Below, one piece after another: positions 16,408 through 36,020 of a stretch of 64,000 bases of DNA. Origin of the DNA: Actinoallomurus soli. Its GTDB lineage: Bacteria > Actinomycetota > Actinomycetes > Streptosporangiales > Streptosporangiaceae. A program made the position numbers and the translations under genes. The stretch's first letter is position 1, and every line of letters begins with the position of its first letter. The notes under the pieces were generated by a model. It saw only the letters and a program-made list of their open reading frames with translations. It ran no database searches and had not been told where the DNA came from. The stretch lies in NCBI RefSeq assembly GCF_024055715.1, contig NZ_JAMXMV010000009.1, positions 124,001 through 188,000 of the forward strand, read 5' to 3'.

Positions 16408-16423
16408 GACGAGGAGGCCGGAG

Positions 16424-19127: not shown

Positions 19128-19164
19128 ACCGGGTGCTCGGGCTCCTCCCCCGCCGACGCCGCTC

Positions 19165-19182: not shown

Positions 19183-19213
19183 CGCATCGGCGACCGGGGG
19201 AGGAGCCGCTGCC

Positions 19214-21055
19214 ATGGACACGACACCGAGCACGTCCGCGAGGCGAGGGCAGACCGGAGCCGGCCGCTACCTTCCGATCTCCGATCACGGGCTGATCGGC
19301 GACCTGCGAACGGTGGCCCTGGTCGGCACCGACGGCACCATCGACTGGTACTGCTGCCCGAGGTTCGACGCGCCCAGCGTCTTCGCCGCCATCCTCGACG
19401 CCGACCGGGGCGGAGCGTTCGAGCTGGCCGCGATCGCGCCGGCCAGGACCAAGCAGTTCTACTTTCCCGACACGAACGTGCTGATCACCCGGTTCTTCAC
19501 CGAGGACGGGCTCGGCGAGGTCCAGGACTTCATGCCGGTCTGCGAGACCGGCGAGGCCGACCGGCACCGGCTGATCCGGCGGGTGATGTGCGTACGCGGA
19601 TCGCTCCCGTTCCGCGCCCGGGTCGCTCCCCGGTTCGGCTACGGCGCGGACCCCCACACCGCGCGGATGCTCGACGACTCGGTGCTCTTCGAGTCCGAGG
19701 CGCTCACGCTCGCGCTGACCGCCACAGTGCCGCTCGAGTGCGACGGCGTGGACGTCCACGCCGAGTTCAAGCTCACCGAGGGCCAGGCCGCGGTCTTCGC
19801 CCTGGACCAGATCGGCGACACGATCGCGCCGCGTGGCTGTCCGTACACCGAGGCGGAACGGGAATTCACCGCCACGGTCGCCTTCTGGCGGACCTGGCTG
19901 TCGTCATCCCGCTATCGCGGCCGATGGCGGGAGATGGTGCACCGCTCGGCGCTGACCCTCAAGCTGCTGACCTACGCCCCCACCGGCGCGATCGTCGCCG
20001 CGCCCACCACGAGCCTGCCGGAGCGCCTCGGAGGCGGACGGAACTGGGACTACCGTTACGTCTGGGTCCGTGACGCGGCGTTCGCCGTGTACGCGCTGCT
20101 GCGCCTGGGCTTCACCGGAGAGGCCGAGGCGTTGATGGCCTTCCTGCGGCGGCGGACGAACCTGTGCGGTGACGGGCCGTCCGGGCCCTTGCAGATCATG
20201 TACGGCATCGACGGGCGTACCGACCTGCCCGAGCGCGAGCTGCCCCATCTGGAAGGTCATCGCGGTTCGGCGCCGGTCCGGGTCGGCAACGCCGCCGCCG
20301 ACCAGCTGCAGCTCGACATCTACGGTGCTCTGATCGACTCCGTATACCTCTACGACAAGTGGGGGCAGCCGATCTCCAGCGACCACTGGGATGGGGTGTG
20401 CGCCGTGGTCGACTGGGTCTGCCGCAACTGGGACCAGCCCGATGAGGGCATCTGGGAGACCCGTTCCGGGCGCCGGAGATTCCTGTACTCGCGGCTGATG
20501 TGCTGGGTGGCGATCGAACGGGCCATGCGCACGGCGCGGCGCCGCGGCCTGCCCGGTGAGCTCCCGCAGTGGATGAGATCCAGGGATGAGATCTACCGGC
20601 GGATCATGGGGAGCTGCTGGTGTCCTGCCCGGAAGGCGTTCGTCCAGCACGAGGACGGTGACGCGCTCGACGCGGCCGTGCTGATGATGCCGCTGGCCAA
20701 GTTCGTCTCCCCCACCGACCCGAAGTGGCTGTCGACGCTGGACGCGCTCACCGCGGATCTGGTGTCCGACTCGCTGGTCTACCGTTACGACCCGCGGATC
20801 AGCCCGGACGGCGTCGGGGACGAGGAGGGCACCTTCTCCATCTGCTCCTTCTGGTACGTCGAGGCCCTCGCCCGCGCCGGGCGCGTGGAGGAGGCCCGGC
20901 TGGCCTTCGAGAAGATGCTCACCTACGCCAACCACGTCGGCCTGTACGCCGAGGAGATCAGCCACACCGGAGAACAGCAGGGCAATTTCCCGCAGGCGTT
21001 CACCCACCTGGCACTGATCAGCGCCGCGTTCAACCTCGACCGCGCACTCGGCTGA
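19214..21055 (+). CDS. Glycoside hydrolase family 15 (glucoamylase/trehalase-like)
   Basis: 613 aa, cytoplasmic (no signal peptide). An N-terminal beta-sandwich (ISDHGLIGDLRTVALVGTDG, IDWYCCPRFDAPSVF) precedes the (alpha/alpha)6 barrel (GGGRNWDYRYVWVRDAAF). The likely catalytic acid lies in QPDEGIWETR (E411) and the base in HTGEQQGNFPQAF (E587). Bacterial GH15 proteins with this N-terminal pattern include glucoamylases and trehalases; mycobacterial-type trehalases belong here. Placement after a GH13 alpha-glucosidase operon fits either trehalose or alpha-glucan breakdown. GGGGGAGGAG precedes the ATG. Confidence 0.88.
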   Translation: MDTTPSTSARRGQTGAGRYLPISDHGLIGDLRTVALVGTDGTIDWYCCPRFDAPSVFAAILDADRGGAFELAAIAPARTKQFYFPDTNVLITRFFTEDGLGEVQDFMPVCETGEADRHRLIRRVMCVRGSLPFRARVAPRFGYGADPHTARMLDDSVLFESEALTLALTATVPLECDGVDVHAEFKLTEGQAAVFALDQIGDTIAPRGCPYTEAEREFTATVAFWRTWLSSSRYRGRWREMVHRSALTLKLLTYAPTGAIVAAPTTSLPERLGGGRNWDYRYVWVRDAAFAVYALLRLGFTGEAEALMAFLRRRTNLCGDGPSGPLQIMYGIDGRTDLPERELPHLEGHRGSAPVRVGNAAADQLQLDIYGALIDSVYLYDKWGQPISSDHWDGVCAVVDWVCRNWDQPDEGIWETRSGRRRFLYSRLMCWVAIERAMRTARRRGLPGELPQWMRSRDEIYRRIMGSCWCPARKAFVQHEDGDALDAAVLMMPLAKFVSPTDPKWLSTLDALTADLVSDSLVYRYDPRISPDGVGDEEGTFSICSFWYVEALARAGRVEEARLAFEKMLTYANHVGLYAEEISHTGEQQGNFPQAFTHLALISAAFNLDRALG

Positions 21056-21074: not shown

Positions 21075-21121
21075 TCATCACCCGGCGGCCGCCGGTCGCC
21101 GTTCAGCACGCTCACCCACTC

Positions 21122-21164
21122 TTGACATGCTTACGTCAGTCCTTAAATCATGCCAAAAAATTAG
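21122..21164 (+). promoter_or_regulatory. Promoter-operator of the beta-glucuronidase gene (putative ROK box 1)
   Basis: TTGACA (21122-21127) is the -35; the AT-rich TTAAATCATGCC block begins at 21143 and covers the -10. Over 44 bp (21121-21164) the sequence is identical at 37 positions to the region before the binding-protein gene at 22989-23032, far more than promoter elements alone need. A related block occurs beside the ROK gene at 34674-34695. This is best read as a shared repressor site. Confidence 0.75.
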
Positions 21165-21182
21165 GTCTTTCCCGGAGGTGCC

Positions 21183-22949
21183 GTGCTACGTCCTCAGGAG
21201 ACGCCCAGCCGCGAACGTGTCGGTCTCAACGGGCTGTGGGCCTTCGCGCTCGACCCCGGCGACCGGGGGCGCGCCGAGCGGTGGTGGTCCGGCCCGCTGC
21301 CCGGCGCGTCGGAGATGCCGGTGCCGGCGAGCTTCAACGACGTGCCGGCCACCCGGGACGCCCACGACCACGTCGGCGACGTGTGGTACCAGCGAGAGGT
21401 ACGGATCCCGGCCGGGTGGGCGGGCCGGCGGGTCGTGCTGCGGTTCGACGCCGCCGCCCATCGCGCCGTGGTCTGGTGGAACGACGCCGAGGTCGGACGG
21501 CACGACGGCGGTTACACGCCGTTCGAGTGCGACCTGACCGGGCACGCCCGCCCGGGCGGGACCGGCCGGGTGACGGTGGTGGTCGACAACCGGCTGACCC
21601 CCTCCTCGATCCCGCCCGGGATCGTCGACGTCCTGCCGGACGGGCGCCGCCGCCAGCGGTACTTCCACGACTTCTTCAACTACGCCGGGCTGCACCGCGC
21701 CGTCTGGCTCTGCAGCACGCCCCGCTCCTACGTCCGCGACATCACCGTGACCACGGAGGTGACGGGCGCCGACGCCCGGGTCCACTACCGCGTGGACGTC
21801 GTGGACGGGCGGGTCGCCGAGGTCGTGCTGCGCGACGCCGACGGCGCCGAGCGAGCGCGGGCGACGACCGCCGCCGGCACGCTCGAGGTGCCGGACGCGA
21901 CGCTGTGGCGGCCCGGCCACGGGCACCTGCACCGCCTCGAGGTCCGTACGGACGGCGAGGACGCCGACGAGTACGCGCTGCCGGTCGGCATCCGCGAGGT
22001 GAAGGTGGACGGCGACCGCTTCCTGATCAACGGCGAGCCGTTCCACTTCCGGGGGTTCGGCAGGCACGAGGACAACCCCGTGCGCGGCAAGGGCCACGAC
22101 GACGTGCACATGGTGCACGACTTCGCGCTGCTCGACTGGATCGGCGCGAACTCCTTCCGCACCTCGCACTACCCGTACGCCGAGGAGGTGCTGGAGTACG
22201 CCGACCGGCACGGCATCGTGGTCATCGACGAGACCCCGGCCGTCGGGCTCAACTTCGAGATCGCGCACACGCTCGTCCCCGGCGATCCCCCGCACATCTG
22301 GGCGGCGATCGACGACACCACCCGGGCTGCCCACCTGCGCGCCATCCAGGAACTCGTGGCCCGCGACAAGAACCACCCGAGCGTGGTCATGTGGAGCATC
22401 GCCAACGAACCGGACTCGGCCCGGCCCGAGGCGCGCACGTACTTCGAGCCGCTCGTCCGGGCCGCGCGCGAGGCCGACCCGAGCCGGCCCGTCTGCTTCG
22501 CCCAGGTCCAGCTGCCCCCGGACAAGGACGTCATGAGCGACCTGTTCGACGTCATCTGCCTCAACCGCTACAACGGCTGGTACGTCGACACCGGCGACCT
22601 GGTGACGGCGGAGCGCGAGCTGGAGGCGGAGCTGCGCGAGTGGGTCCGCCTCCACGGCAAGCCGATCATCGTGACCGAGTACGGCGCGGACGCGATCGCC
22701 GGCGTGCGCTCGGTCGCGGCGGGCACCTGGACCGAGGACTACCAGGTCGCGCTGCTGGAGACCTTCCACCGGGTCTTCGACCGTGTCGACTCCGTCGTGG
22801 GCGAGCACGTCTGGAACTTCGCCGACTTCGCCACCGGGTACGGCGTGAACCGCGCCGATGGCAACAAGAAGGGCGTCTTCACGCGGGACCGCCGGCCTAA
22901 GGCGGCCGCCTTCGCCCTGCGCCGCCGCTGGCGGACGGAGGCGGACTGA
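21183..22949 (+). CDS. uidA: Beta-glucuronidase (GH2)
   Basis: 588 aa, cytoplasmic, starting at GTG 21183 with GGAGG 4 nt upstream. GH2 sugar-binding and immunoglobulin-like domains lead to a TIM barrel with acid/base E409 (SIANEPD) and nucleophile E499 (VTEYGAD). The NKKG motif (N561, K563) followed by VFTRDRRPK is the glucuronate-carboxylate-binding signature that separates beta-glucuronidases from beta-galactosidases. The length equals that of other GUS enzymes (~600 aa). It is transcribed from the first of two twin promoters, so it is co-regulated with the downstream importer and GH1 gene. It probably removes glucuronic acid from imported glycosides or oligosaccharides. Confidence 0.92.
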   Translation: MLRPQETPSRERVGLNGLWAFALDPGDRGRAERWWSGPLPGASEMPVPASFNDVPATRDAHDHVGDVWYQREVRIPAGWAGRRVVLRFDAAAHRAVVWWNDAEVGRHDGGYTPFECDLTGHARPGGTGRVTVVVDNRLTPSSIPPGIVDVLPDGRRRQRYFHDFFNYAGLHRAVWLCSTPRSYVRDITVTTEVTGADARVHYRVDVVDGRVAEVVLRDADGAERARATTAAGTLEVPDATLWRPGHGHLHRLEVRTDGEDADEYALPVGIREVKVDGDRFLINGEPFHFRGFGRHEDNPVRGKGHDDVHMVHDFALLDWIGANSFRTSHYPYAEEVLEYADRHGIVVIDETPAVGLNFEIAHTLVPGDPPHIWAAIDDTTRAAHLRAIQELVARDKNHPSVVMWSIANEPDSARPEARTYFEPLVRAAREADPSRPVCFAQVQLPPDKDVMSDLFDVICLNRYNGWYVDTGDLVTAERELEAELREWVRLHGKPIIVTEYGADAIAGVRSVAAGTWTEDYQVALLETFHRVFDRVDSVVGEHVWNFADFATGYGVNRADGNKKGVFTRDRRPKAAAFALRRRWRTEAD

Positions 22950-22989
22950 CGGTATGCGCATTCGTGACAATCGCGCGATCATCACGCCC

Positions 22990-23032
22990 TTGACACGCTT
23001 ATCTCAGATCTTAAATCATGCCTTAAAATTAG
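22990..23032 (+). promoter_or_regulatory. Promoter-operator of the second sugar ABC operon (putative ROK box 2)
   Basis: TTGACA (22990-22995), then TTAAATCATGCC from 23011 and AAAATTAG ending at 23032. It is the near copy of the site at 21122-21164. The AT-rich block overlaps the expected -10 and start point, the best position for a repressor. Confidence 0.75.
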
Positions 23033-23053
23033 CCTCACGGAGGAAGTGGCATT

Positions 23054-24367
23054 ATGAGCGTGCGGGCCCGTACCGCCTTCGGCGCCGTCCTAGGCGCGAC
23101 CGTCCTCGCCGTGCTCCCCGGCTGCGGGGGCGGGACCTCCACCGCGCCGAACGGTGGCAACAGCCACCCCAAGACGCTCACCTACTGGGCGAGCAACCAG
23201 GGCGCCAGCCTGGAAGACGACAAGGCCAAGCTCACCCCCGAGCTGCAGGCGTTCGAGAAGCAGACCGGCATCAAGGTCAAGCTCGAGGTCGTCCCGTGGT
23301 CCGACCTGCTCAACCGCATCCTCGCCGCGACCACCTCCGGGCAGGGCCCCGACGTGATGAACATCGGCAACACCTGGTCGGCGTCGCTGCAGGCGACCGG
23401 CGCCCTCCTGCCCTTCACCGACGCCAACTTCGCCAAGATCGGCGGCAAGGACCGGTTCCAGGCTTCGGCGCTCGGCTCGACGGGCGCGGCCGGCAAGCCG
23501 CCGACGGCGGTGCCGCTCTACTCCCTGTCGTACGCGCTGTACTACAACAAGAAGCTCTTCGGCCAGGCCGGGATCAGCAAGCCGCCGGCCACCTGGAACG
23601 AACTCGTCCAGGACGGCAAGAAGCTGACCACCGGCGGCCACACCGGCCTGGCCATCGAGGGCGCCAGCATCCCGGAGAACACCCACCACGCCTTCGTCTT
23701 CGCCAAGCAGCACGGCGGTGACTTCTTCGACGCGCAGGGCAACCCGACCTTCACCGCACCGGGCGTCGCCGAGGGCGTCAAGCAGTACGTCGACTTCGTG
23801 GCCGGCGACAAGATCGCCTCGCCGAGCGACGCGGAGTACGCCCAGAACGAGTCCGTCCGCGACTTCGCCTCCGGCAAGGCCGCGATGATCCTCTGGCAGG
23901 CCGGCGGCAAGAACTTCCAGAGCCACGGGATGAAGCCCGACGACTACGGCGTCGCGCCGGTTCCCGTCCAGTCCGGCGCGCCCGGACAGGGGCAGAACGT
24001 GAACTCCATGGTCGCGGGGATCAACATGGCCGTCTTCAAGAACACCGGCAACCTCGACGGCGCCCTGAAGTTCGTGCAGTTCATGACCAGCGACGCCGAG
24101 CAGAAGAAGCTCAACTCCGAGTACGGCTCGATCCCGGCGGTCAAGACCGCCGCGCAGGACCCGGCGTTCGCCACCCCGGAGCAGAACATCCTGCGCACCA
24201 CCATCGCCACCAGCGCGACGCCGATGCCGCAGGTGCCCAAGGAATCGCAGTTCGAGCAGGTCATCGGTAGTGCGCTGAAGGACCTGCTGGCCGACGCGGC
24301 GGCCGGGCGGCCGGTGACGCTGGAGTCGGTGCGCAGCCGGCTCGCCAAGGCCCAGCAGCAGATGTAG
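23054..24367 (+). CDS. Sugar ABC transporter substrate-binding lipoprotein
   Basis: 437 aa. The signal peptide ends in the lipobox LPGC (C24). The mature protein is a MalE-like binding protein (FEKQTGIKVKLEVVPWSDL, VPLYSLSYALYYNKKLFGQ, FASGKAAMILWQAGG). CGGAGGAAG precedes the ATG. It leads an operon of two permeases and a GH1 enzyme and has its own copy of the promoter found before the GUS gene, so a beta-linked glucuronide or glucoside is the expected ligand. Confidence 0.88.
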   Translation: MSVRARTAFGAVLGATVLAVLPGCGGGTSTAPNGGNSHPKTLTYWASNQGASLEDDKAKLTPELQAFEKQTGIKVKLEVVPWSDLLNRILAATTSGQGPDVMNIGNTWSASLQATGALLPFTDANFAKIGGKDRFQASALGSTGAAGKPPTAVPLYSLSYALYYNKKLFGQAGISKPPATWNELVQDGKKLTTGGHTGLAIEGASIPENTHHAFVFAKQHGGDFFDAQGNPTFTAPGVAEGVKQYVDFVAGDKIASPSDAEYAQNESVRDFASGKAAMILWQAGGKNFQSHGMKPDDYGVAPVPVQSGAPGQGQNVNSMVAGINMAVFKNTGNLDGALKFVQFMTSDAEQKKLNSEYGSIPAVKTAAQDPAFATPEQNILRTTIATSATPMPQVPKESQFEQVIGSALKDLLADAAAGRPVTLESVRSRLAKAQQQM

Positions 24368-24383
24368 CGCGGGTCCACCACTG

Positions 24384-25379
24384 ATGACGACGACCGCGCA
24401 TCGCGAGGCGCCCCCCGGAGCCCGGGAGACCGGCCCGGGGGCGCCGCGCCGGCGCCCGTTCCGCATCCCCGACCGGGTGCGGCGCGGGGGCCTGCCGTAC
24501 CTCCTCCTGCTGCCCGCGATCCTCCTCGAGCTCATCGTCCACGTCATCCCGATGGTCCTGGGCGTGGCGATGAGCTTCAAGGAGCTCACCCAGTTCTTCA
24601 TCCGCGAATGGTGGAAGGCCCCCTGGACCGGGTGGGACAACTACCGCGTCGTGGTGAAGGTGAACGGGCCGATCGGGCACGCCCTGCTGAGCTCCTTCCT
24701 CGTCACCTGCGCCTTCACCGTGCTGGCCGTCGGCCTGTCCTGGCTGCTCGGCACGGCCGCGGCCATCCTCATGCAGGACGGCTTCCGCGGCCGGGGGTTC
24801 CTGCGGGCGCTGTTCCTCACCCCGTACGCCCTGCCGCTGTACGCCTCGGTGATCGTCTGGGCGTTCATGTTCCAGCACGACAACGGCATCGTGAACCACG
24901 TCCTGCACGACCAGCTGCACCTCACCGGCAAGCCGACCTTCTGGCTGCTCGGCGACAACAGCTTCTACTCCCTCGTCATCGTCTCGGTCTGGCGCAACTG
25001 GCCGTTCGCCTTCCTCGTCGTCGTCGCCGGCCTGCAGAACATCCCGCGCGAGCTGTACGAGGCCTCGGCGATCGACGGCGCCGGGATCTGGCAGCAGATC
25101 CGCCGGATCACGCTGCCGTCCCTGCGCCCGGTCAACCAGGTCCTCGTCCTGGTCCTGTTCCTGTGGACGTTCAACGACTTCTCCACGCCGTACGTGCTGT
25201 TCGGCCAGGCGCCACCGGCGGGCGGCGACCTGGTCTCCCTGCACATCTACCAGTCCTCGTTCATCACCTGGAACTTCGGCGAGGGGTCGGCGATGTCGGT
25301 GCTGATGCTGCTGTTCCTCGGCCTGGTCACGGCCGTCTACCTGCTGGTCACGTCACGAAGGAGGGGCGCACGTGCCTGA
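24384..25379 (+). CDS. Sugar ABC transporter permease (MalF-like)
   Basis: 331 aa. A hydrophilic N-terminus of ~30 residues precedes six membrane spans, with the EAA-type loop LYEASAIDGAGIWQQIRRIT. The gap to the binding-protein gene is 16 bp and the 3' end overlaps the next permease by 8 bp, so translation is probably coupled. Confidence 0.9.
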   Translation: MTTTAHREAPPGARETGPGAPRRRPFRIPDRVRRGGLPYLLLLPAILLELIVHVIPMVLGVAMSFKELTQFFIREWWKAPWTGWDNYRVVVKVNGPIGHALLSSFLVTCAFTVLAVGLSWLLGTAAAILMQDGFRGRGFLRALFLTPYALPLYASVIVWAFMFQHDNGIVNHVLHDQLHLTGKPTFWLLGDNSFYSLVIVSVWRNWPFAFLVVVAGLQNIPRELYEASAIDGAGIWQQIRRITLPSLRPVNQVLVLVLFLWTFNDFSTPYVLFGQAPPAGGDLVSLHIYQSSFITWNFGEGSAMSVLMLLFLGLVTAVYLLVTSRRRGARA

Positions 25380-26229
25380 CCGCTCACCGATGGCGCCGCC
25401 GCGCTCGTTCGTGTGGACCCGGCGCGTCGTCCTGACCCTGCTCACGGTGTTCTCGGCGCTGCCCGTGTACGTCATGCTGAGCAGCTCGCTCAAGCCGCTG
25501 CAGGACGTCGCGGGGACGTTCCACTGGTTTCCGGAACGGCTCACCCTCCGCCCGTACATCGACATGTGGCGGACCGTTCCGCTCGCCCACTACTTCGCCA
25601 ACTCGATCATCGTCTCCGTCGGCGCGACGGTCTGCTCGGTCGTCGTGGCGATCTTCGCGGCGTACGCGGTCAGCCGCTACCGGTTCAAGGGCCGCCGGGT
25701 GTTCACCGTCACGGTGCTGTCCACCCAGATGTTCCCCGGCATCCTGTTCCTCCTGCCGCTGTTCCTCATCTACGTCGGTGTCGGCAACGCCACCGGCCTG
25801 GCGCTGAGCGGCTCGCGCGGCGGTCTGATCCTGACCTTCCTCACCTTCTCGCTGCCCTTCTCGATCTGGATGCTGGTCGGCTACTTCGACTCCATCCCGG
25901 AAGGGCTCGACGAGGCGGCGATGGTGGACGGCTGCGGGCCGCTCGGCGCGCTGTTCCGCGTCGTCATCCCCGCCTCGCTGCCGGGCATCGTCGCGGTGGC
26001 GATCTACGCCTTCATGACCGCCTGGAGCGAGGTCCTGTTCGCCTCCGTGATGACCAACGACGCGACCCGCACGCTGGCCGTGGGGCTGCGCGCGTACGCG
26101 ACCGAGACCGACGTGTACTGGAACCAGGTGATGGCCGCCTCGCTGTTCGTCAGCGTCCCCGTGGTCGCCGGGTTCCTCCTCCTGCAGCGTTACCTGGTCG
26201 CCGGGCTCACCGCCGGGGCCGTCAAGTGA
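25372..26229 (+). CDS. Sugar ABC transporter permease (MalG-like)
   Basis: 285 aa starting with GTG inside the end of the previous gene. Six membrane spans, with the coupling loop [20 protein letters not shown]. Its stop codon overlaps a possible GTG start of the GH1 gene. As in the first importer, no ATPase gene is present, which points to a shared MsiK-like ATPase. Confidence 0.9.
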
Positions 26230-26258
26230 ACGCCGCCACCACCACAGAAAGGCACTCC

Positions 26259-27605
<1,347 letters not shown>

Positions 27606-27643
27606 CGTCGCTTCCGCCGGGTCTTCACGGCCCGCGTCCAGAC

Positions 27644-27683
27644 CGCGGCCCTCGCCGGTGTCCGTCTCCCGGCGAGGGCCGCG
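27644..27683 (+). terminator. Intrinsic terminator of the GH1 operon
   Basis: CGCGGCCCTCGCCGG (27644-27658) is perfectly complementary to 27669-27683, a 15-bp stem with a 10-nt loop, 38 nt after the GH1 stop. Confidence 0.8.
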
Positions 27684-27689
27684 CCATCG

Positions 27690-27758
27690 CGAGCCGGGTA
27701 GGACCCGGAATCGAGCCGGGCAGGGACGCGGGCTCGCGAACCGGGTACGGACGCGGGA
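27690..27758. repeat. Three imperfect ~23-bp tandem repeats
   Basis: Related units with the core GA(G/A)CCGGG(T/C)A begin near 27690, 27712 and 27735, between the terminator and the next gene. They are GC-rich with no clear hairpin or coding function. Confidence 0.5.
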
Positions 27759-27809
27759 CGGCGCCGAAATTCGCGCCACGAGGCACCCGGTCCGGGTTAC
27801 GTTCGGGGC

Positions 27810-28469
27810 GTGGCGTGGGGAACCAGGATCGCAACGTTGGCGGCTTTGGCCGCGGGACCCGTACTGATCGCCGTGGGCGTGGCGCTGGGCGCCGGGCCCT
27901 TCGCCGACTTCGAGGCGTACGAGCGGGCACCGCTGTGCGGGTCGCCGCCACCGGCCGACACGGGTCACTGCGTCACACGGCTGCCGATGACCGTCATCAA
28001 GAAGTCCACGTACACGACCGAGGACCCGGACCCACCGGACCCGCCGCAGTTCCCGCAGCCGCCCCCACCGCCTCCGCCCCCGATGGGGCCGTTCCGGGTG
28101 GTCCTCCCGACCGCGGTGAGGCAGCGGGTCGTCGCCGCCTCGCGGACCACCCACTACAAGGTCACCGTGCGCACCGCGGACGGGCGGTACCACGACTTCG
28201 AGGTGGAGCACGGCTTCTACAAGGTGGCCGAGACGGGCACCACCGGCACCGCCGACATCTGGCACGGCCGCGTGGTACGGCTGCAGATCGGCACGCACGT
28301 CGACGACGAGTGGCCGGACTGGAAGCTGGGCATCCCGGTCTGCATCGTTCTGGCGGGGACGGTCGTGTTCGTCGTCGTGGTGATCCGCCTCATCAGGCGC
28401 CGCGTCCGTGAGCGGAGGCGCAGACGGCGCGGCTCCGGCTTTCAGGGCTCCCCATGGGGAGCTTGGTGA
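27810..28469 (+). CDS. Membrane protein with proline-rich external linker
   Basis: 219 aa from a GTG at 27810. One membrane span near the N-terminus (about 8-28), an outside region with DPDPPDPPQFPQPPPPPPPP (residues about 72-91), a folded stretch (HYKVTVRTADGRYHDFEVEH), and a second span near 176-198, then a very basic cytoplasmic tail (RLIRRRVRERRRRRR). It resembles small actinobacterial membrane proteins of unknown role with a DUF3592-like core. Its last 28 bp overlap the convergent WYL-regulator gene. Confidence 0.68.
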   Translation: MAWGTRIATLAALAAGPVLIAVGVALGAGPFADFEAYERAPLCGSPPPADTGHCVTRLPMTVIKKSTYTTEDPDPPDPPQFPQPPPPPPPPMGPFRVVLPTAVRQRVVAASRTTHYKVTVRTADGRYHDFEVEHGFYKVAETGTTGTADIWHGRVVRLQIGTHVDDEWPDWKLGIPVCIVLAGTVVFVVVVIRLIRRRVRERRRRRRGSGFQGSPWGAW

Positions 28470-29470
28470 GCCTGCCCGCCTCGGCGTGAATCGGACCGGT
28501 GGGTGATTCGGGCGGCATCGGCGTAGCGCGCGGCGAGGCGCGCGAACGCGGTGGCCAGCTCCGGCGGGCCGATGACCTCGACGTCGGCGTCGAAACGGCC
28601 GATCGCGGCGGCCAGACCGGTCCATGACCAGGAGCCGAGGGTGAGCCGGCAGCGGTCGGGGCCGAGTTCTTCGACGACTCCGTCCCGGGCGAAGGGGGCC
28701 ACGGCGGTGGCGGGAAGGTCGAGGACGACCTCCCCCCGGCAGGGCCAGTCGGTGGTGGTGCCGTCGGTGCCACGGAAACGGCCGGTGACGAAGGCGGACA
28801 CGCCGCCGGGGAGCTCGCGCGGGTTGAAGCGCGGGCCGGTGGGCGTGCGCGGGCGGATGCGGTCGACGCGGAAGGTGCGCCAGTCGTCGCGGTCGAGGTC
28901 CCAGGCGAGGAGGTACCAGCGGCCCTGCCAGGTGACCAGGTGGTGGGGCTGTGTTCTGCGGGGTCGCTCAGCGGGATCGGTGTGGTCGCGGCCGTAGTCG
29001 AAGCGAAGCTCCGCATGGGCGTGGATCGCGTTGCTCAGCTCCGTCAGGAGTCGCGGGTCGCCTGGTGAGGCGTCGTCGTTCTCGGGTGGCTGGACGGCGG
29101 TGATCCGGAGCATGTCGACGCGGTGGCGCAGACGGGGCGGCAGGACCTGGCGGATGGTGGCCAGGGCCCGTGTGGCGTCTTCGCCGATCGTGGTGTCGGC
29201 GGCCGCGGTCTGGAGCGCAACGGCCAGGGCGACGGCTTGGTCGTCGTCGAACAGCAGGGGCGGCAGCTGCGAGCCGGCCTCCAGGCGATAACCGCCGGAA
29301 GGCCCCTTGAAAGCCGCGATCGGATACCCGAGCTCCCGCAGGCGATCCACGTCACGGCGCACCGTGCGCGGGGTGACGTCGAGCCGCTCGGCGAGGTCGT
29401 CGCCGGACCAGTCACGGTGCATCTGAAGCAGGGAGAGCAGCGCGAGCAATCGCGACGAGGTCTTCTGCAT
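28442..29470 (-). CDS. WYL-domain transcriptional regulator (YafY type)
   Basis: 342 aa. An N-terminal winged helix-turn-helix (RLLALLSLLQMHRDWSGDDL, VTPRTVRRDVDRLRELGYPI) is followed by a WYL effector domain, with the diagnostic GRWYLLAWDLDRDDWRTFRV. Members sense nucleic-acid or small-molecule ligands and often control a neighbouring divergent gene, here a VOC-family protein. A GGACA-N5-TGTCC inverted repeat just upstream is a good candidate for its own operator. Confidence 0.9.
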   Translation of the reverse strand: MQKTSSRLLALLSLLQMHRDWSGDDLAERLDVTPRTVRRDVDRLRELGYPIAAFKGPSGGYRLEAGSQLPPLLFDDDQAVALAVALQTAAADTTIGEDATRALATIRQVLPPRLRHRVDMLRITAVQPPENDDASPGDPRLLTELSNAIHAHAELRFDYGRDHTDPAERPRRTQPHHLVTWQGRWYLLAWDLDRDDWRTFRVDRIRPRTPTGPRFNPRELPGGVSAFVTGRFRGTDGTTTDWPCRGEVVLDLPATAVAPFARDGVVEELGPDRCRLTLGSWSWTGLAAAIGRFDADVEVIGPPELATAFARLAARYADAARITHRSDSRRGGQAHQAPHGEP

Positions 29471-29493
29471 GGTCCCATTCTGCGCGGAGTACA

Positions 29494-29508
29494 GGACACA
29501 ACCTGTCC
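29494..29508. promoter_or_regulatory. Inverted repeat GGACA-N5-TGTCC in the WYL/VOC divergent region
   Basis: The arms at 29494-29498 and 29504-29508 are perfect; a second overlapping symmetry, ACAGG-N6-CCTGT, spans 29491-29506. It lies 24 bp from the WYL start codon, where binding would block its own promoter and possibly influence the divergent VOC gene. Confidence 0.5.
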
Positions 29509-29638
29509 GCTACCCCGGGAATGGTGGACACCAGAGCCGCCGGGGAGCATCGCCCCTGGTGGTCATGGGTCGCCGCGCCCGTGGGCTCTGTCGGGCCGGT
29601 GGCGCACCTCCGTGGAACCGAAGGCAAGGAGCAAGGAC

Positions 29639-30061
29639 ATGTCCGTCACCACCACCACTCACCTGAACTTCCGGGGCACCGCGCGTGAGGCGCTCGACTT
29701 CTACCAGTCCGTGTTCGGCGGGCGCACCGTCGCCGTCACGTACAAGGACGCCGGCGCCGTGCAGAACGAGAACGAGGCGGACTGGGTGATGTGGGGCGAG
29801 GTCGTCGGCGACAACGGCTTCCACGTGATGGCCTACGACGCGCCCTCCCAGCTGCCCTGGAGCCAGGGTGACGACCCGTTCTTCGTGTCCGTACGCGGCG
29901 ATGACGCCGACGAGATCAGCGCCTTGTGGCGGAAGCTGGCGGAGGGCTCGACGGTGGTGCGCCCCCTGGAGGCGGCGCAGTGGGCGCCGCTGTACGGCAT
30001 GCTCACCGACCGCTTCGGCGTGACCTGGGTCCTCGACGTCGCCGCTCCGTACAACGGCTGA
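29639..30061 (+). CDS. VOC-family protein (PhnB/glyoxalase-like)
   Basis: 140 aa from the ATG at 29639, with AAGGAGCAAGGA upstream. The N-terminal TTTHLNFRGTAREALDFYQS and the C-terminal LYGMLTDRFGVTWVLDV match the PhnB/3-demethylubiquinone-9 methyltransferase-like branch of the vicinal-oxygen-chelate fold. Such proteins next to WYL/YafY regulators are common, and the pair is usually of unknown function. It could bind a small toxin or metabolite. Confidence 0.85.
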   Translation: MSVTTTTHLNFRGTAREALDFYQSVFGGRTVAVTYKDAGAVQNENEADWVMWGEVVGDNGFHVMAYDAPSQLPWSQGDDPFFVSVRGDDADEISALWRKLAEGSTVVRPLEAAQWAPLYGMLTDRFGVTWVLDVAAPYNG

Positions 30062-30088
30062 GCGACCGGCCAGACGCAGAAGAACTCC

Positions 30089-30120
30089 CCCGGGCCGCCG
30101 CGTCCCCGCGGCGGCCCGGG
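30089..30120 (+). terminator. Intrinsic terminator after the VOC gene
   Basis: CCCGGGCCGCCGCG (30089-30102) pairs perfectly with 30107-30120 around a TCCC loop, giving a 14-bp stem 27 nt past the stop. Confidence 0.82.
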
Positions 30121-30149
30121 CATGACGAACCGGAAGGGAACGGGTCACC

Positions 30150-31175
30150 GTGCGAATGCGACAGCTGGGACGTACCGGCATCGAGGTCAGCGCCTACTGC
30201 CTGGGCACCATGATGTTCGGGACGGGCAATCCCGACCACGACGACTGCGTGCGCATGATCCACCGGGCGCTCGACGCGGGCATCAACTTCCTCGACACCG
30301 CCGACGTGTACGGCTACAGCGCGACCGAGGAGATCGTCGGCAAGGCCCTGAAGGGGCGCCGCGACGAGGTGGTGCTGGCCACCAAGTTCAACGGCCCGAT
30401 GGGCGAGGGCCCCAACCGCGGGGGCAGCTCACGCCGCTGGATCATGACCGCGGTCGAGGACTCACTGCGACGGTTGCGGACCGACCACATCGACCTCTAC
30501 CAGATCCACCACCCGGACCCGCACACGGACATCGAGGAGACCCTCTCCGCGCTCTCCGACCTGGTGCGCGCCGGAAAGGTCCGCGCGATCGGCTCCTCCA
30601 ACCTGCCGGCCTCGCAGATCGTCGAGGCCCAGTGGGTGTCCGAGCGGCGCGGACTGCACCGGCTGCGCACCGAGCAGCCCACCTACTCCATCCTCAACCG
30701 CGGCATCGAGCGGGAGGTCCTGCCGGCCTGCCGCCGCTACGGCATGGGCGTCCTCGTGTGGAGCCCGCTGGCCATGGGCCTGCTGACCGGCCGCTACCGC
30801 AAGGGCACCGCGCCGAACGACGCCCGCATGCGGTGGGTCCCCCGGCACCTCACCGACGAGAACAAGCTCGACGCCGTCGAACGACTCCTGCCCATCGCCG
30901 ACGAGGCCGGTGTCTCCCTCACCCACCTGGCCATGGCCTTCGCCGTCGGCCACCCGGACGTCACGTCCGCGATCATCGGCCCGCGCACCATGGAGCACCT
31001 GGACGACCTGATCGCGGGTGCGACCGTCACCCTCGGCGACGACGTCCTCGACCGGATCGACGCGATCGTCCCGCCCGGCGCCGATCTCGGCCCCCTGGAC
31101 GTCTCCTACACCCCGCCCTCCCTCACCCGGCCCGGACTGCGCCGCCGTCCGGTCGGCGAGCGGTCCGCGGCCTGA
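30150..31175 (+). CDS. Aldo-keto reductase
   Basis: 341 aa from a GTG at 30150. AKR barrel motifs are present: MRMRQLGRTGIEVSAYCLGT, the catalytic Asp and Tyr in INFLDTADVYGYS, Lys in VVLATKFNGPMG, and His in LYQIHHPDPHTDIEE. The PLAMGLLTGRYRKG loop places it with NADPH-linked bacterial AKRs of the YakC/Tas type. It is followed after only 6 bp by a DNA-glycosylase-like gene, so the two are probably co-transcribed. Substrate unknown. Confidence 0.88.
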   Translation: MRMRQLGRTGIEVSAYCLGTMMFGTGNPDHDDCVRMIHRALDAGINFLDTADVYGYSATEEIVGKALKGRRDEVVLATKFNGPMGEGPNRGGSSRRWIMTAVEDSLRRLRTDHIDLYQIHHPDPHTDIEETLSALSDLVRAGKVRAIGSSNLPASQIVEAQWVSERRGLHRLRTEQPTYSILNRGIEREVLPACRRYGMGVLVWSPLAMGLLTGRYRKGTAPNDARMRWVPRHLTDENKLDAVERLLPIADEAGVSLTHLAMAFAVGHPDVTSAIIGPRTMEHLDDLIAGATVTLGDDVLDRIDAIVPPGADLGPLDVSYTPPSLTRPGLRRRPVGERSAA

Positions 31176-31181
31176 GCGCCC

Positions 31182-32282
31182 ATGACCGTCCTCAGCGCCC
31201 GCGCCCTGGGCCGCGCGACCCTCGCCCGCCAGTACCTGCTCGAGCGCGCGGACACCCCGGCCCGTGACGCCGTGGCGCACCTGTGCGGCCTGCAGGCGCA
31301 GGAACCCCAGGAACCGTTCACCGGCCTGTGGTCCCGTCTGCGCGCTTTCAAGCCGGAGGAACTGGACGAGGCGCTGACGGACCGGACGGTCGTCCGTACG
31401 CACCTGATGCGCCGCACCGTCCACCTGGTCACCGCCGACGACGCGCTGGCCTGGCGGGCCCGCCATGACGCCATGCTGCGGCAGCGGGTGACGGCCACCT
31501 ACCGGCGTGAACTCGCGGGCATCGACCTGGACGAGGTGGCCGCGGCCGGGCGCGCGGTCATGGCCGACGGCCGGCCCCGTACCATGGCCGACCTCGTCCG
31601 CGCGCTCGAGGACCGCTGGCCCGGCCCGCCGCGCCGGGTCCTGGGCGAGCTCCTCGTCGCGGCCCTCATCCCGATGGTCCAGCTCCCGCCGCGCGGCCTG
31701 TGGCACACGACCGCCGGGGTGCGGAACCTGCCCCTGGCCGCCTGGGTCGGGCGTGAGATCGCCCCGCCGTCCGCCGACCCGGGCGATCCGGTCGGGCAGC
31801 AACTGGTACGGCGTTACCTCGCCGCCTACGGGCCCGCCGCCACCGCGGACCTCCGCGCCTGGTGCGGTCTCGCCGGTCTTCCCGCCGCCGTCGAGGCCCT
31901 CCGTGAGCGGCTCGTCGTCTTCCGCGACGAACGCGGCCGTGAACTTCTCGACCTGCCCGACGCGCCACGCCCGTCTCCGGACACGCCCGCCCCCGTCCGG
32001 TTCCTCCCGGCCTTCGACAACGCGATCCTCGGCTACCACGACCGCGGCCGCATCATCGACGACGCCCACCGCGGTCTGTCCGTCGCCGGCCGGCGCGCCG
32101 TGCTCGTCGACGGACGCGTCGCCGCCCCCTGGACCGTACGCGACCGGCGGATCCGCGTGACGCCGCTGCGGCCCCTCTCCGTCCCGGAGCGAGAGGCCGT
32201 CGGTGAGGAGGCCCACGACCTCGCCGCCTTCCTGGACGAGGGCGTCGACCGCGTCGAGATCACCGCCCATGCCGACCGCTGA
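31182..32282 (+). CDS. AlkZ-like winged-helix DNA glycosylase (HTH_42 family)
   Basis: 366 aa. The protein belongs to the HTH_42 (winged helix DNA-binding) family, seen in LLERADTPARDAVAHLCGLQ, RTHLMRRTVHLVTADDALAW and the C-terminal FLPAFDNAILGYHDRGRII. The QAQ at residues 38-40 sits at the position of the catalytic QxQ motif of AlkZ, the azinomycin-resistance glycosylase that unhooks interstrand crosslinks; E. coli YcaQ has QxD instead. It is likely a base-excision enzyme for bulky or crosslinked N7-alkyl-purines, although most family members are untested. It follows the aldo-keto reductase by 6 bp. Confidence 0.8.
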   Translation: MTVLSARALGRATLARQYLLERADTPARDAVAHLCGLQAQEPQEPFTGLWSRLRAFKPEELDEALTDRTVVRTHLMRRTVHLVTADDALAWRARHDAMLRQRVTATYRRELAGIDLDEVAAAGRAVMADGRPRTMADLVRALEDRWPGPPRRVLGELLVAALIPMVQLPPRGLWHTTAGVRNLPLAAWVGREIAPPSADPGDPVGQQLVRRYLAAYGPAATADLRAWCGLAGLPAAVEALRERLVVFRDERGRELLDLPDAPRPSPDTPAPVRFLPAFDNAILGYHDRGRIIDDAHRGLSVAGRRAVLVDGRVAAPWTVRDRRIRVTPLRPLSVPEREAVGEEAHDLAAFLDEGVDRVEITAHADR

Positions 32283-32337
32283 GCGCGTGCGTCGGCCGAG
32301 GGTCGCCGCGCTCGCGGGCCGCGGCGCGAGCGCGGGA

Positions 32338-32368
32338 GGGCCCGCGCGGCTGGATGCCGCGCGGGCCC
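32338..32368. terminator. Bidirectional hairpin between convergent genes
   Basis: GGGCCCGCGCGGC (32338-32350) pairs perfectly with 32356-32368 over a 5-nt loop. It lies between the glycosylase gene and the stop of the opposite-strand secreted-protein gene and can serve both. Confidence 0.8.
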
Positions 32369-32389
32369 GGAGTGGCAGGGGCCGGCGGG

Positions 32390-34585
32390 TCAGGGGTAGC
32401 TGACCACGTCGACCGGGGTGGTCGCGGTGCCCTGGGCGGCGCCGCCGGTGTTGTTGATGACGTGGTCGATCGTGCCGTTGCCGCCGAGGGACACGGTCAG
32501 CAGGTCGTGGAACTTCACGCCGGAGGTGTTCGGCGCCTCGAAGGCGTGCGCCGCGTGGATCGAGGGATCGACGTTGAAGTAGCAGTAGCTGCCGAGACCC
32601 CACCCTTCGTGGGTCGTGACGTTCGCCCCCACCTTGTAGGCGGCGTAGCCGTTGGTGGAGCCGTTCATCCAGGCGGCCTGGTTCGGCGGGTCGTACGGCA
32701 TCTCGTTCTGGAAGAAGAACGTCTTGCCGCGCTCGCCGTTCCAGACGACCTCGTACTTCTGGTAGTGCTCGACGAACAGGCCGTACGCCGTCACGTCGTT
32801 GCCGTTGACGATCAGGCCGGTGTCGGCGGTGTTGCTCGTCCAGCCGACGCCGGAGCCGTGATCGGCCCGCCAGGCCCAGATGTGGTCGATGATCGCGTTG
32901 TTGCTGTTGACGACCAGGCTGTTGGTGGCCTTGCCCACGCCCGCGCCGCCGATCCGGAAGAACACGTCCTGAATCGAGGTCGGGTCGGCGGAGTGGTCGG
33001 CCGTGGACCCGCTCGGCCCGACCTGCAGCAGGTTGGGCGAGTTGGTCGCGCCGGCGTCGAACAGCAGGCCGGCGATCTTCACGCCGTTGACGTCGGCGAC
33101 GGACATCGGCGTGACGCCGTTCTGCGGCACCAGCGTGGCGTAACCGAGGCCGAGGACGACCGTGTCCGCGCGGGTCACGTTGAGCGTCTGGTCGATGGTG
33201 TAGACACCCGGGGTGAACAGCAGGTTGAGACCCTGGGCCAGCGCCTGGTTGAGGGTCGCCGCGCTGTCGGACGGATGGGCGACGTAGAACTGGGTCAGCG
33301 GGATCGACGAGCCGGGCGTGCTGCCGCCGCTCCAGGTCGTGCCCTGGGTGTTCTGCCGCAGCGACGGCACGAACACGCGGTACGCGCCGGAGGAGTCGAC
33401 GTACAGGAACGGCTTCTCCCGCGTCACCGGCGCGTTCGCCACGGTCGTGTACGGCGGGTTCGGGAAGCTCTGCGCCGGTGCGCCCGCGACGCCGGTGAAC
33501 ACCATGTTCCACACGCCGTTCAGCCAGCCGCCGATCTGGCTGTTGCGGGTGAACCACTGCTGCTGGGAGTACGGCTGCACCTGGCCGTCGACCTTGGTGT
33601 CGGCGATGTAGCCGCCGCTGGCCCAGCCGTAGCCGGTCGGGGCGAGATTCAGGTCGCCCTTGATGTGCATGCGGCGGAACGGCGCGGCCTGCGAGACCGC
33701 CCAGCGGTCGGACCCGCCAGTGGGCTGCACCGCCATGTTCTCCGCGGAGCGCCAGAAGTTCTGGGTGGCGTTCCCGTTCATCCAGCCGGCGTCGACGTTC
33801 ACCGAGCCGTTGATGGTGACGTCGTCGGGGTTCGCGCCGAGCCCGGCGATGGAGGTGTAGAAGCCGATGTTGGCGTTGACGTTGTAGCTGCCCGGCTTGA
33901 ACAGCAGCGCGTACCGCTGGCTGCCGAACTGGTTGCTCTCCTGCTGGCTGAACACGCTGTCGAGCCGGCTCTGGATGGTGGCCGACGACATCGACGGGTC
34001 GAACACGTACACGTTGGGACCGAGGTCGCCGCCTCCGGGGAGCGTGCCGCCTCCCCCGCTCGCGGTGTGGACGACGAACTCCCAGAGCGAGTAGCCGTAA
34101 CCGGTGGTGCGGGCGGTGCCGTACATGCGAATGTAGCGGCCGGTGCCGCTGACGTTCAGCGTCTCGGTGCCGCCCTGACCCGTCGTGGTGGAGTAGATGG
34201 TGGTCCAGGTGTTCCCGTCGGACGAGGTCTGGATCTGGTACGCCTTGCCGGCGGCCGTCTCCCACTGCAGCACCACCTGGCAGATGGACTGCGAGGAGCC
34301 GAGGTCGACCTGAAGCCACTGCGGGTCGCTGAAGGCGCTGGACCAACGGGTGCCGGTGTCGCCGTCGACCGCGTTGGAGGCGGGGGTGCCGGAGTTCTCG
34401 GTGGAGGACGCGGTGGCGGGGCGGCCCTGGGCGGCGTTGGCGGTGCCGCAGGTCGCGGCACGCGAGGTCGGCGCGAGGGCGACGAACAGGCCGGTGAGGA
34501 GGGCGATGACCGCGGCGATCGAGATCGGCGACTGCCGATGGGACCGGGGTCGGGTCCGGCCACCTGGGACGAAAGCGGGTTTCAT
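32390..34585 (-). CDS. Secreted discoidin (CBM32-like) plus beta-helix protein
   Basis: 731 aa from the ATG at 34585 (GGGAGA 6 nt before). A long basic signal peptide (membrane segment ISIAAVIALLTGLFVAL) leads to a F5/8-type C/discoidin domain, residues about 45-175 (ASNAVDGDTGTRWSSAFSDP, WLQVDLGSSQSICQVVLQW). A Gly-rich linker follows, then a large domain with NVYVFDPSMSSATIQSRLD and repeated short strands and Asn ladders typical of a right-handed beta-helix (pectate-lyase-like). Relatives are often labelled adenylyl cyclase in databases, which the sequence does not support. It probably binds and cleaves or modifies a polysaccharide; the CAZy family cannot be set by eye. Its promoter resembles the GUS and sugar-importer promoters. 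Confidence 0.75.
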   Translation of the reverse strand: MKPAFVPGGRTRPRSHRQSPISIAAVIALLTGLFVALAPTSRAATCGTANAAQGRPATASSTENSGTPASNAVDGDTGTRWSSAFSDPQWLQVDLGSSQSICQVVLQWETAAGKAYQIQTSSDGNTWTTIYSTTTGQGGTETLNVSGTGRYIRMYGTARTTGYGYSLWEFVVHTASGGGGTLPGGGDLGPNVYVFDPSMSSATIQSRLDSVFSQQESNQFGSQRYALLFKPGSYNVNANIGFYTSIAGLGANPDDVTINGSVNVDAGWMNGNATQNFWRSAENMAVQPTGGSDRWAVSQAAPFRRMHIKGDLNLAPTGYGWASGGYIADTKVDGQVQPYSQQQWFTRNSQIGGWLNGVWNMVFTGVAGAPAQSFPNPPYTTVANAPVTREKPFLYVDSSGAYRVFVPSLRQNTQGTTWSGGSTPGSSIPLTQFYVAHPSDSAATLNQALAQGLNLLFTPGVYTIDQTLNVTRADTVVLGLGYATLVPQNGVTPMSVADVNGVKIAGLLFDAGATNSPNLLQVGPSGSTADHSADPTSIQDVFFRIGGAGVGKATNSLVVNSNNAIIDHIWAWRADHGSGVGWTSNTADTGLIVNGNDVTAYGLFVEHYQKYEVVWNGERGKTFFFQNEMPYDPPNQAAWMNGSTNGYAAYKVGANVTTHEGWGLGSYCYFNVDPSIHAAHAFEAPNTSGVKFHDLLTVSLGGNGTIDHVINNTGGAAQGTATTPVDVVSYP

Positions 34586-34673
34586 GAACGTCTCCCGGTT
34601 GCGGGGGCGGGGAGGAGAGGACGCGTGCGGCGCCGTCGGCGCACGCGTCGAGGCGGGGCCCATTGCTACAGGG

Positions 34674-34718
34674 CTTAATTAATGACGTGATTTAACCTCG
34701 GGGGTCGCAGCTCGTCAA
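34674..34718 (-). promoter_or_regulatory. Promoter-operator of the beta-helix gene (putative ROK box 3)
   Basis: On the minus strand TTGACG (34718-34713) and TTAAAT (34695-34690) are spaced by exactly 17 bp. TTAAATCACGTCATTAATTA continues the -10 and matches TTAAATCATGCC...ATTA of the two sites at 21143 and 23011. The TTAATTAA palindrome at its end is a common element of actinobacterial ROK operators. The divergent ROK gene starts 73 bp away. Confidence 0.65.
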
Positions 34719-34790
34719 GGCCGCGTAACACCCGCCCGCGCGGCTTTTCGAGTGCTTGTTATAAGATCTGAACTAATCGGGGAGGTCGGT

Positions 34791-36020
34791 ATGCGGGAGC
34801 ACGTCACACCAGAACGACGGCGAGGCACGGTGCGTGACCTCCGTCGCGACAACCGGTCGGTCCTGCTCTGGTCGCTCTACTTCGACCAGCCCTGCACGCG
34901 CCAGGAGCTCAGCCGGGCGACCGGCCTGTCCCCCGCGTCGGTCAGCAACGTCGTCCGTGAGCTGATCGAGGAGGGCGTCGTCGCCGAGGCCGGCGCGGTC
35001 GACTCCGACGGCGGCCGCCCGCGCGTCCTGCTCCGCATGAACAGCGACTACGGGTACGTCATCGGAGTGGACGTCGGCGAGACCCGCGTCCGCGTCGAGC
35101 TGTTCGACCTCGCGATGAACGAGCGCGCCAGGGCCGACTTCCCGCTGGACCCGCGGGAGCACGGCGTCACGACGATCGTCGAGCGCATCCTGGAGGGCCT
35201 GTCCGCCGTGCTCTCCGACGCGGACGTCGACGCCTCGTCGGTGCTCGGCGTCGGCATCGGCGTCCCGGGCGTCGTCGAGCAGGGTGACGAGGTGCTCGTG
35301 CACGGCCAGACGTACGGCTGGGAGGGCGTCCCCCTGGAGCGCCTGCTGCGCGCCGGGACCGACCTGCCGCTGCACATCGACAACGGCGCCAACACGATGG
35401 GCCGCGCCGAGATGTGGTTCGGCGCGGGCCAGGGCGCCCAGCACGCGGTCGTCTGCCTGATCGGCTCGGGCGTCGGCGCGAGCATCATCGCGCACGGCCG
35501 GACCCACCGCGGATCCACGTCCAGCGCCGGCGAGTGGGGCCACACCACCATCGTGGTGGGCGGGCGCGGGTGCCGGTGCGGCTCGGCGGGCTGCCTGGAG
35601 GCGTACGTCGGCGCCGAGGCCGTCCTGGACCGCTACGGGAGGATCCCCGGCCAGGACGAGGAGTCGGCGCTGGCCGCCCTGCTCGACGCGGCCACCCGAG
35701 GGCAGGAGGAGGCCGCGCACGTCCTGGACGAGACCGCGTTGTACCTCGGCGTCGGCCTCGCCGACCTGATCAACCTCTTCAACCCCGAGCGGATCATCCT
35801 CGGCGGCTGGGCCGGCCTCCTGCTCGGCGAGCGGCTGCTGCCGGCCATCCGCGACGCCGCCCGGCGCAACTCCCTCAAGCACGCCTTCTCCGAGACGTCG
35901 ATCGAGCTGGGCCGCCTGGGCCCGGAGGCCGTGGCCCTGGGCGCCGCGACCCTCCCCATCGAACTCTTCCTCAACGGCGCCCCGCTGTCCGTCACGGACC
36001 GCCACCGCTCCGCCGGCTGA
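34791..36020 (+). CDS. ROK-family transcriptional repressor (NagC/XylR-like)
   Basis: 409 aa from the ATG at 34791 (GGGGAGG 5 nt upstream). A winged helix-turn-helix (FDQPCTRQELSRATGLSPAS, VSNVVRELIEEGVV) precedes a sugar-kinase-like ROK fold. The zinc site is complete: GEWGHTTIVVGGRGCRCGSAGC. The kinase site reads HIDNGANTM where active ROK kinases have (E)NDANA, so the catalytic Asp is replaced by Gly and it should only bind sugar. It is divergent from the beta-helix gene, whose promoter carries a box shared with the GUS and sugar-importer operons. Confidence 0.92.
   Translation: MREHVTPERRRGTVRDLRRDNRSVLLWSLYFDQPCTRQELSRATGLSPASVSNVVRELIEEGVVAEAGAVDSDGGRPRVLLRMNSDYGYVIGVDVGETRVRVELFDLAMNERARADFPLDPREHGVTTIVERILEGLSAVLSDADVDASSVLGVGIGVPGVVEQGDEVLVHGQTYGWEGVPLERLLRAGTDLPLHIDNGANTMGRAEMWFGAGQGAQHAVVCLIGSGVGASIIAHGRTHRGSTSSAGEWGHTTIVVGGRGCRCGSAGCLEAYVGAEAVLDRYGRIPGQDEESALAALLDAATRGQEEAAHVLDETALYLGVGLADLINLFNPERIILGGWAGLLLGERLLPAIRDAARRNSLKHAFSETSIELGRLGPEAVALGAATLPIELFLNGAPLSVTDRHRSAG

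Follow-up and report, generated by a model that had tools for sequence, protein, structure and literature searches.

A ROK gene and three promoters with a common element

The window analysed here, a 64,000-nucleotide stretch of the genome of the soil actinobacterium Actinoallomurus soli, holds three units whose promoters carry a single common element, together with the gene of a ROK-family repressor that most likely binds this element. The first unit is a beta-glucuronidase (GUS) gene of glycoside hydrolase (GH) family 2 (21183..22949, plus strand; 588 amino acids, GTG start; NCBIfam NF007538, 825 bits with a cut-off of 544). It is followed on the same strand by the operon of a sugar ABC importer, which encodes a solute-binding lipoprotein (solute-binding protein, SBP; 23054..24367; Pfam SBP_bac_1, 174 bits), two permeases (24384..25379 and 25372..26229; both Pfam BPD_transp_1) and a cytoplasmic GH1 beta-glucosidase (26235..27605; TIGR03356, 626 bits with a cut-off of 478.5; Pfam GH1, 515 bits), in which no signal peptide was seen by eye. 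The third unit, on the minus strand (32390..34663), had been described as a secreted ‘beta-helix’ protein; from its match to SacteLam55A, it is predicted to be a secreted exo-beta-1,3-glucanase of family GH55 with a carbohydrate-binding module (CBM) of family 32, and its true start is likely to be the ATG at 34585, judged by eye against relatives. The ROK gene lies next to it on the plus strand (34791..36020; Pfam ROK, 179 bits; longer open reading frame (ORF) from 34752), and most likely starts with the ATG at 34791 and not with the GTG at 34752.

The common element is located at 21143 in the GUS promoter, at 23011 in the SBP promoter and at 34695, on the minus strand, in the GH55 promoter. 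The promoter-operator of GUS (21121..21164, plus strand) consists of TTGACA, 15 bp and TTAAATCATGCCAAAAAATTAG, with the operator at 21142-21164 and a position weight matrix (PWM) score of 39.1 bits; that of the SBP operon (22989..23032, plus strand) consists of TTGACA, 15 bp and TTAAATCATGCCTTAAAATTAG, with the operator at 23010-23032. The GH55 promoter-operator (34674..34718, minus strand) lies between the GH55 and ROK genes and has the form TTGACG-17 bp-TTAAATCACGTCATTAATTAAG, with TTGACG at 34713-34718 and the operator GTTAAATCACGTCATTAATTAAG at 34674-34696. The preliminary description of the locus had proposed both a shared element at the three promoters and a TTGACG-17 bp version facing the ROK gene, and both proposals hold: the GUS and SBP stretches are identical in 37 of 44 bp, with the likeness dropping on either flank, an exact 12-mer is present at all three promoters and the GH55 version is found on the minus strand as claimed. 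The spacer between TTGACA and TTAAAT is, with a correction, 15 bp in GUS and SBP and 17 bp in GH55.

A count of the 12-mer with two mismatches in the 64-kb window alone is not significant (3 found compared with 1.8 expected; 26 of 100 shuffles reach 3), so that the case is carried by the whole-genome counts. In the 9,422,568-base genome, the exact 12-mer TTAAATCAYGYC occurs in three places, all at this locus, and the reversed control in none. The 22-mer TTAAATCAYGYCNNWAANTWAG with up to three mismatches recovers the identical three places and no fourth; a slightly looser 22-mer pattern yields two further 3-mismatch matches elsewhere in the genome. These patterns were built from the three sites, so that zero mismatches there are a matter of construction, and the informative part is the absence of other places.

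The element reads as a complete promoter with a 23-bp palindromic operator laid over the presumed -10. The consensus CTTAAATCACGCCATGAATTAAG, derived from 20 sites beside homologous genes, is an imperfect palindrome of 23 bp (5-8 of 11 pairs). All 34 hand-picked sites have an intact TTGAC, 15-18 bp ahead of the TTAAAT that we infer to be the -10; the spacer is 17 bp in 22 sites, 18 bp in seven, 16 bp in one and 15 bp in four. A palindrome covering the -10 of a TTGAC-type promoter is the layout expected for a repressor. Palindromic AT-rich operators at their own or target promoters are a mark of ROK-family repressors, and such operators are seen in the 20 sites and next to ROK homologues.

The ROK protein itself combines a winged helix-turn-helix (matches at residues 37-78 of the ORF from 34752) with a ROK domain, and its long matches are to the structures of Lmo0178 and Mlc, the nearest solved structure being Lmo0178 (5f7p, 177 bits). 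The zinc motif of ROK proteins is CxCGxxGCxE; the present protein carries CRCGSAGCLE, in which C261, C263 and E270 are invariant, and C268 nearly so, in an alignment of 21 homologous sequences. Just upstream of the ROK start, a weak second palindrome-like stretch (34755..34777, minus strand; PWM score of 16 bits) is a possible autoregulatory site, and similar weak matches near the ROK start occur in at least 7 of 30 ROK loci compared.

We propose the following mechanism. The ROK repressor (34791-36020) would bind the imperfect palindrome and thereby cover the -10 region of the TTGAC-type promoters, shutting out RNA polymerase, until a glucose or gluco-oligosaccharide effector caused it to leave all three promoters together. 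The units released in this way would be the secreted CBM32-GH55 enzyme, the SBP-permease-permease-GH1 system, which would import and split gluco-oligosaccharides, and the beta-glucuronidase, which would have joined the regulon in this Actinoallomurus lineage via a copy of the importer promoter.

Distribution of the element among relatives

In the genus Actinoallomurus, the 12-mer is present in 7 of 8 genomes, in 11 places, compared with none for the control. At the family level, a count by the 22-mer with three mismatches was noisy, with many control matches, and was dropped; the count was therefore repeated at one mismatch, which gave 36 matches in 30 of the 341 genomes and no control match in all 341. 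Homologues of ROK, SBP (importer), GH55 or GUS adjoin 32 of the 36 matches, nine of which were assigned solely from their position some 80 bp away from a ROK match. The remaining matches include a site cut by a contig end (genome G005), one located 288 bp before a secreted GH18-type protein (G206) and one that points at a kinase-like ORF, named by eye, back to back with a secreted GH3 gene (G258:C34). Neither the genome-wide nor the family scans placed the site before many unrelated genes.

The arrangement of the genes around the site varies among relatives. Locus L045 is a single cluster of ROK, site and SBP-permease-permease-GH1-GH55; in L061 and L147, the order is GH55, site, ROK, site and SBP operon; in L064 and L067, it is GUS, site and SBP-permease-permease-GH1-ROK. 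In some named members of Streptomyces, Actinacidiphila and Micromonospora, among others, the same SBP-permease-permease-GH1 operon is set apart from ROK by the site. For 17 of 17 intergenic or upstream regions, from the family and beyond, the best site (15.3-41.6 bits, the lowest being that of L157) scores above all 300 dinucleotide shuffles. Among the named loci, a site of at least 25 bits is found in 13 of the 14 with an SBP homologue (L157 is missed) compared with 14 of the 58 without one; this count excludes eight loci, namely three from the genomes used for the matrix, one near-copy of these and four as a precaution. Among 30 ROK loci, which include those of the matrix genomes, a site of at least 19 bits is found in the flank of the ROK gene in 24, and four more have it at the SBP promoter within the same cluster.

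The preliminary description had also suggested that attack outside the cell, uptake and hydrolysis in the cytoplasm are under the control of one ROK protein. The recurrence of the same element between ROK and SBP-permease-permease-GH1 in several actinobacterial groups, together with the single cluster of L045, supports this suggestion, and the existence of one ROK regulon behind the shared element appears well supported.

Substrate of the regulon and the place of the beta-glucuronidase

Residues 208-757 of the GH55 protein match SacteLam55A of Streptomyces sp. SirexAA-E (4pew) over 550 residues with 841 bits (362 of 547 residues, or 66%, identical), and residues 76-199 match a glucanase/chitosanase domain (4zy9), with weaker matches to CBM32 chains. 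According to the available text on SacteLam55A (PMC10637969), the active site comprises a general acid (Glu502/Tyr505), a proton relay (Thr149-Gln174-Ser198-Glu480) and an aromatic block. All 13 residues checked, which represent acid catalysis, the proton relay, subsite -1, the aromatic block and the plus-subsites, are identical in the present protein; the list was drawn from the same text, and the offset of 44 between the numbering of the paper and that of the chain was set by us and fits all 13 residue names. The ‘beta-helix’ protein is accordingly assigned as a predicted GH55 exo-beta-1,3-glucanase. The same source indicates that exo-acting GH55 enzymes release gentio-oligosaccharides from branched laminarin and have little action on laminaribiose; this would account for the presence of an importer and of a GH1 beta-glucosidase in the cytoplasm. 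Two more GH55 genes of this genome (G000:C13:17292-19511, locus L232, and G000:C6:18554-20263, locus L233; 51% and 60% identical) have no site by the 22-mer patterns with three mismatches, strict and looser, and are apparently outside the regulon.

In L045 and L056, the GH55 gene comes after the GH1 gene and has the same orientation. In other relatives, the same promoter-operator precedes a GH30 protein (L063 and L163) or a GH3-CBM6-CBM32 protein (L066), with scores of 30.5, 33.9 and 36.7 bits. The best solved relative of the GH30 protein of L063 is 5ngk, which we take to be a beta-1,6-glucanase; glucosylceramidases and xylanases appear in the same match list. Given the identity of GH55 and the GH30 and GH3 genes that relatives have behind this element, the core regulon most likely serves a beta-1,3(1,6)-glucan, for example, laminarin or the fungal wall; beta-1,3-glucan is a sugar of both fungal and algal walls. 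The secreted proteins behind this promoter-operator in relatives have the domain compositions GH30-lectin, GH30-CBM32, GH3-CBM6-CBM32 and GH18-lectin (L063, L163, L066 and L131).

The beta-glucuronidase is a different matter. GH2 beta-glucuronidases are recognised by the catalytic motifs NEP and TEYG and by the glucuronate-binding NxK; the protein encoded here retains NEPD, TEYG and NKKG, matches the Escherichia coli GUS (3k4a) with 708 bits and, judging from these features, is a true beta-glucuronidase. In the 341 family genomes, GUS homologues (E-value of 1e-120 or better) are found in 31 places in 26 genomes, and 30 of these places were retrieved as loci. The site precedes GUS, with 39 bits, in only three of the 30, those in the present genome and in G027 and G028, two genomes from a second genus of the family, where GUS is divergent from SBP with one site between them; the other 27 score at most -0.7 bits, including L115, for which only 249 bp of upstream sequence are available. 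With the site at three of 30 loci, in two different layouts, GUS is an add-on to the regulon. In four of the seven other Actinoallomurus genomes, GUS (86-89% identical) is located elsewhere and lacks the site. On well supported branches, the tree of GUS requires that the site was gained or lost at least twice; taken alone, this result could represent a single gain and a single loss, but the layouts are of two different kinds. Among the 34 sites, the 15-bp spacer is limited to the present GUS and SBP promoters and the SBP promoters of two genus-mates, and the sharing of this otherwise rare spacer suggests that GUS was, most likely, wired into the regulon by copying of the neighbouring importer promoter.

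Two further regulators are encoded nearby. Directly upstream of GUS, a separate cluster led by a LacI gene (12797-21055, plus strand) encodes the LacI regulator, an SBP, two permeases, a GH13-like and a GH15-like protein (named by eye), and contains no copy of the element. In A. spadix (G007), the space from the GH13-like gene to the SBP operon is taken up by an unrelated gene on the opposite strand, where the present genome has the GH15-like gene and GUS. A WYL-domain helix-turn-helix regulator (28442-29470, minus strand) lies between the GH1 and GH55 units; it is kept in A. spadix (L048) and was not found in the other loci compared.

Alternative readings, known systems and implications

A ROK-controlled beta-glucan regulon with three promoters, those of GH55, of SBP-permease-permease-GH1 and of the captured GUS, is in our view very probable. 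Several observations nevertheless weigh against it. One of the 11 occurrences of the 12-mer in the genus (G003:C13:145426-145437; L013 and L050) lies outside the regulon, lacks TTGAC and has no regulon genes around it, and is probably due to chance. In G233, a site lies by a cluster of a PfkB kinase, an SBP and a class II aldolase that looks unrelated; this site (L132:7968-7990) is strongly palindromic and operator-like, with 33 and 27 bits on the two strands, and perhaps belongs to a sister ROK protein. Fourteen of the 58 named ROK loci without an SBP homologue still have the site, about half of them without a recognised target in the fetched stretch, so that the edge of the regulon is not sharp. 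Two of the 30 ROK loci (G282 and G067) have no full site. ROK homologues (E-value of 1e-100 or better) are present in 123 of the 341 family genomes and the near-exact site in only 30, such that many homologues must rely on a diverged or a different site or lack one altogether. Among solved structures, the closest to the SBP is that of Lin1841 (5ysb, 127 bits), a protein which, in the available text of PMC12369401, binds beta-1,2-gluco-oligosaccharides. Finally, the operon contains no ABC ATPase; a shared ATPase such as MsiK was not searched for.

The affinity of the SBP to Lin1841 makes a beta-1,2-glucan importer a live rival. The importer and GH1 would then serve beta-1,2-gluco-oligosaccharides (sophorooligosaccharides), as in the cluster SGR_2423-2427 of Streptomyces griseus, the GH1 of which is clustered with a Lin1841 homologue and prefers sophorose (PMC12369401, available part), and GH55 would be merely co-regulated. 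This is quite unlikely, given the co-oriented order of GH1 and GH55 in L045 and L056, the presence of the same operator at GH55 in many genomes and the absence of the S. griseus enzyme structures 8KAP and 9U98 from the entries listed for the best 60 of the 193 PDB matches of GH1, although no search was made for beta-1,2-glucanase families in these clusters. The preliminary description had named a glucuronate-containing glycan as the substrate, with GUS as a core member and an importer that carries glucuronides. GUS is a genuine beta-glucuronidase by sequence and bears the site, and the presence of the site at GUS in two separate genera and in different layouts hints at real use, but the intact active site of GH55, the 27 GUS loci devoid of the site, the lack of GUS in most of the fetched site-bearing clusters and the addition of GH30 and GH3 in relatives make this proposal unlikely, and it is not upheld here. 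Glucuronan as the substrate was rejected after the GH55 match. A reader of the element other than ROK, be it the WYL regulator (28442-29470), the LacI regulator (12797-13828) or a special sigma factor, appears very unlikely. Both regulators are encoded within 9 kb of GUS or GH55, and the conserved TTGAC and TTAAAT might point to a sigma factor; among the loci compared, however, L048 is the sole one with the WYL gene and L049 the sole one with the LacI ortholog (both loci are from A. spadix), with weak LacI matches in L057 and L068, so that neither follows the site, whereas ROK is present in most of the site-bearing clusters (for example, L044, L045, L055, L056 and L061), and the palindromic conservation extends past TTAAAT, for which a sigma factor has no need.

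Within the ROK-controlled beta-glucan regulon, the role of GUS allows two readings. Its operator could be a mere by-product of the promoter copy, so that co-regulation would have no metabolic meaning, and this is a real possibility, if short of an even chance: the near-identity of the GUS promoter to the adjacent SBP promoter, the 15-bp spacer seen otherwise only in Actinoallomurus SBP promoters and the site-less GUS genes of four genus-mates all fit, but the second arrangement, in G027 and G028, and the gains or losses required by the tree do not. More tentatively, beta-glucuronidase may have come under a beta-1,3(1,6)-glucan regulon in Actinobacteria, apparently twice, because these bacteria do feed on a beta-glucan capped or branched with glucuronate, with GlcA-beta-gluco-oligosaccharides being taken up by the present importer and then trimmed in the cytoplasm by GUS and, subsequently, by GH1.

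The closest known kinds of system are those of Thermotoga BglR and Streptomyces CsnR, and ROK control of laminarinase genes is already known. In Thermotoga maritima, the ROK repressor BglR jointly controls a laminarinase, a beta-glucosidase and a laminaribiose/cellobiose ABC importer (PMC3750489, available part). The likeness lies in a ROK gene accompanied by a laminarinase, an importer and a beta-glucosidase under one operator, recognised here from sequence only; however, the Thermotoga genes form one operon and the present ones three scattered units, with a GH55 enzyme, the TTGAC/palindrome element and the beta-glucuronidase. BglR responds to cellobiose and glucose, according to the same part of that source, whereas the effector here is only proposed. 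CsnR of Streptomyces lividans is likewise an actinobacterial ROK repressor with a palindrome over the start region of a secreted glycosidase gene, kept across actinomycetes (PMC3048496, available part), but its target is a chitosanase in place of GH55, and its site, as given in the accessible part of PMC4856308, differs by eye from the present one, so that the locus does not belong to a CsnR regulon. RokB of Streptomyces coelicolor is another ROK regulator, the sites of which have A-rich edges and include two in the divergent promoter region of its own gene; its motif differs, and its proposed regulon concerns amino acids (PMC4856308, same part). S. griseus SGR_2423-2427 resembles the present operon in combining an ABC importer, GH1 and a Lin1841-like binding protein, but is a beta-1,2-glucan cluster with GH193, and the terms GH55 and ROK are absent from the main text of PMC12369401. 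Among the literature matches listed, by titles and starts of abstracts, no account of this regulon was recognised, and a search by PDB codes yielded no paper, which is no proof that it is unpublished.

For the utilisation of beta-1,3-glucan (laminarin and fungal walls) by Actinoallomurus and by some Actinomadura, Streptomyces and Micromonospora, these findings supply a defined operator and regulator that can be put to the test, and they turn an unannotated ‘beta-helix’ protein into a predicted GH55 enzyme with a known active site. With GUS, they also offer an example in which the capture of a gene by a regulon can be traced, most likely via promoter duplication. If the tentative reading of glucuronate-bearing beta-glucan as a food is true, it would amount to an undescribed route of glucan utilisation and an undescribed substrate. 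The link of GUS to the regulon, in two layouts and two genera, poses the question whether glucuronate-bearing beta-glucan is part of the diet of these bacteria.

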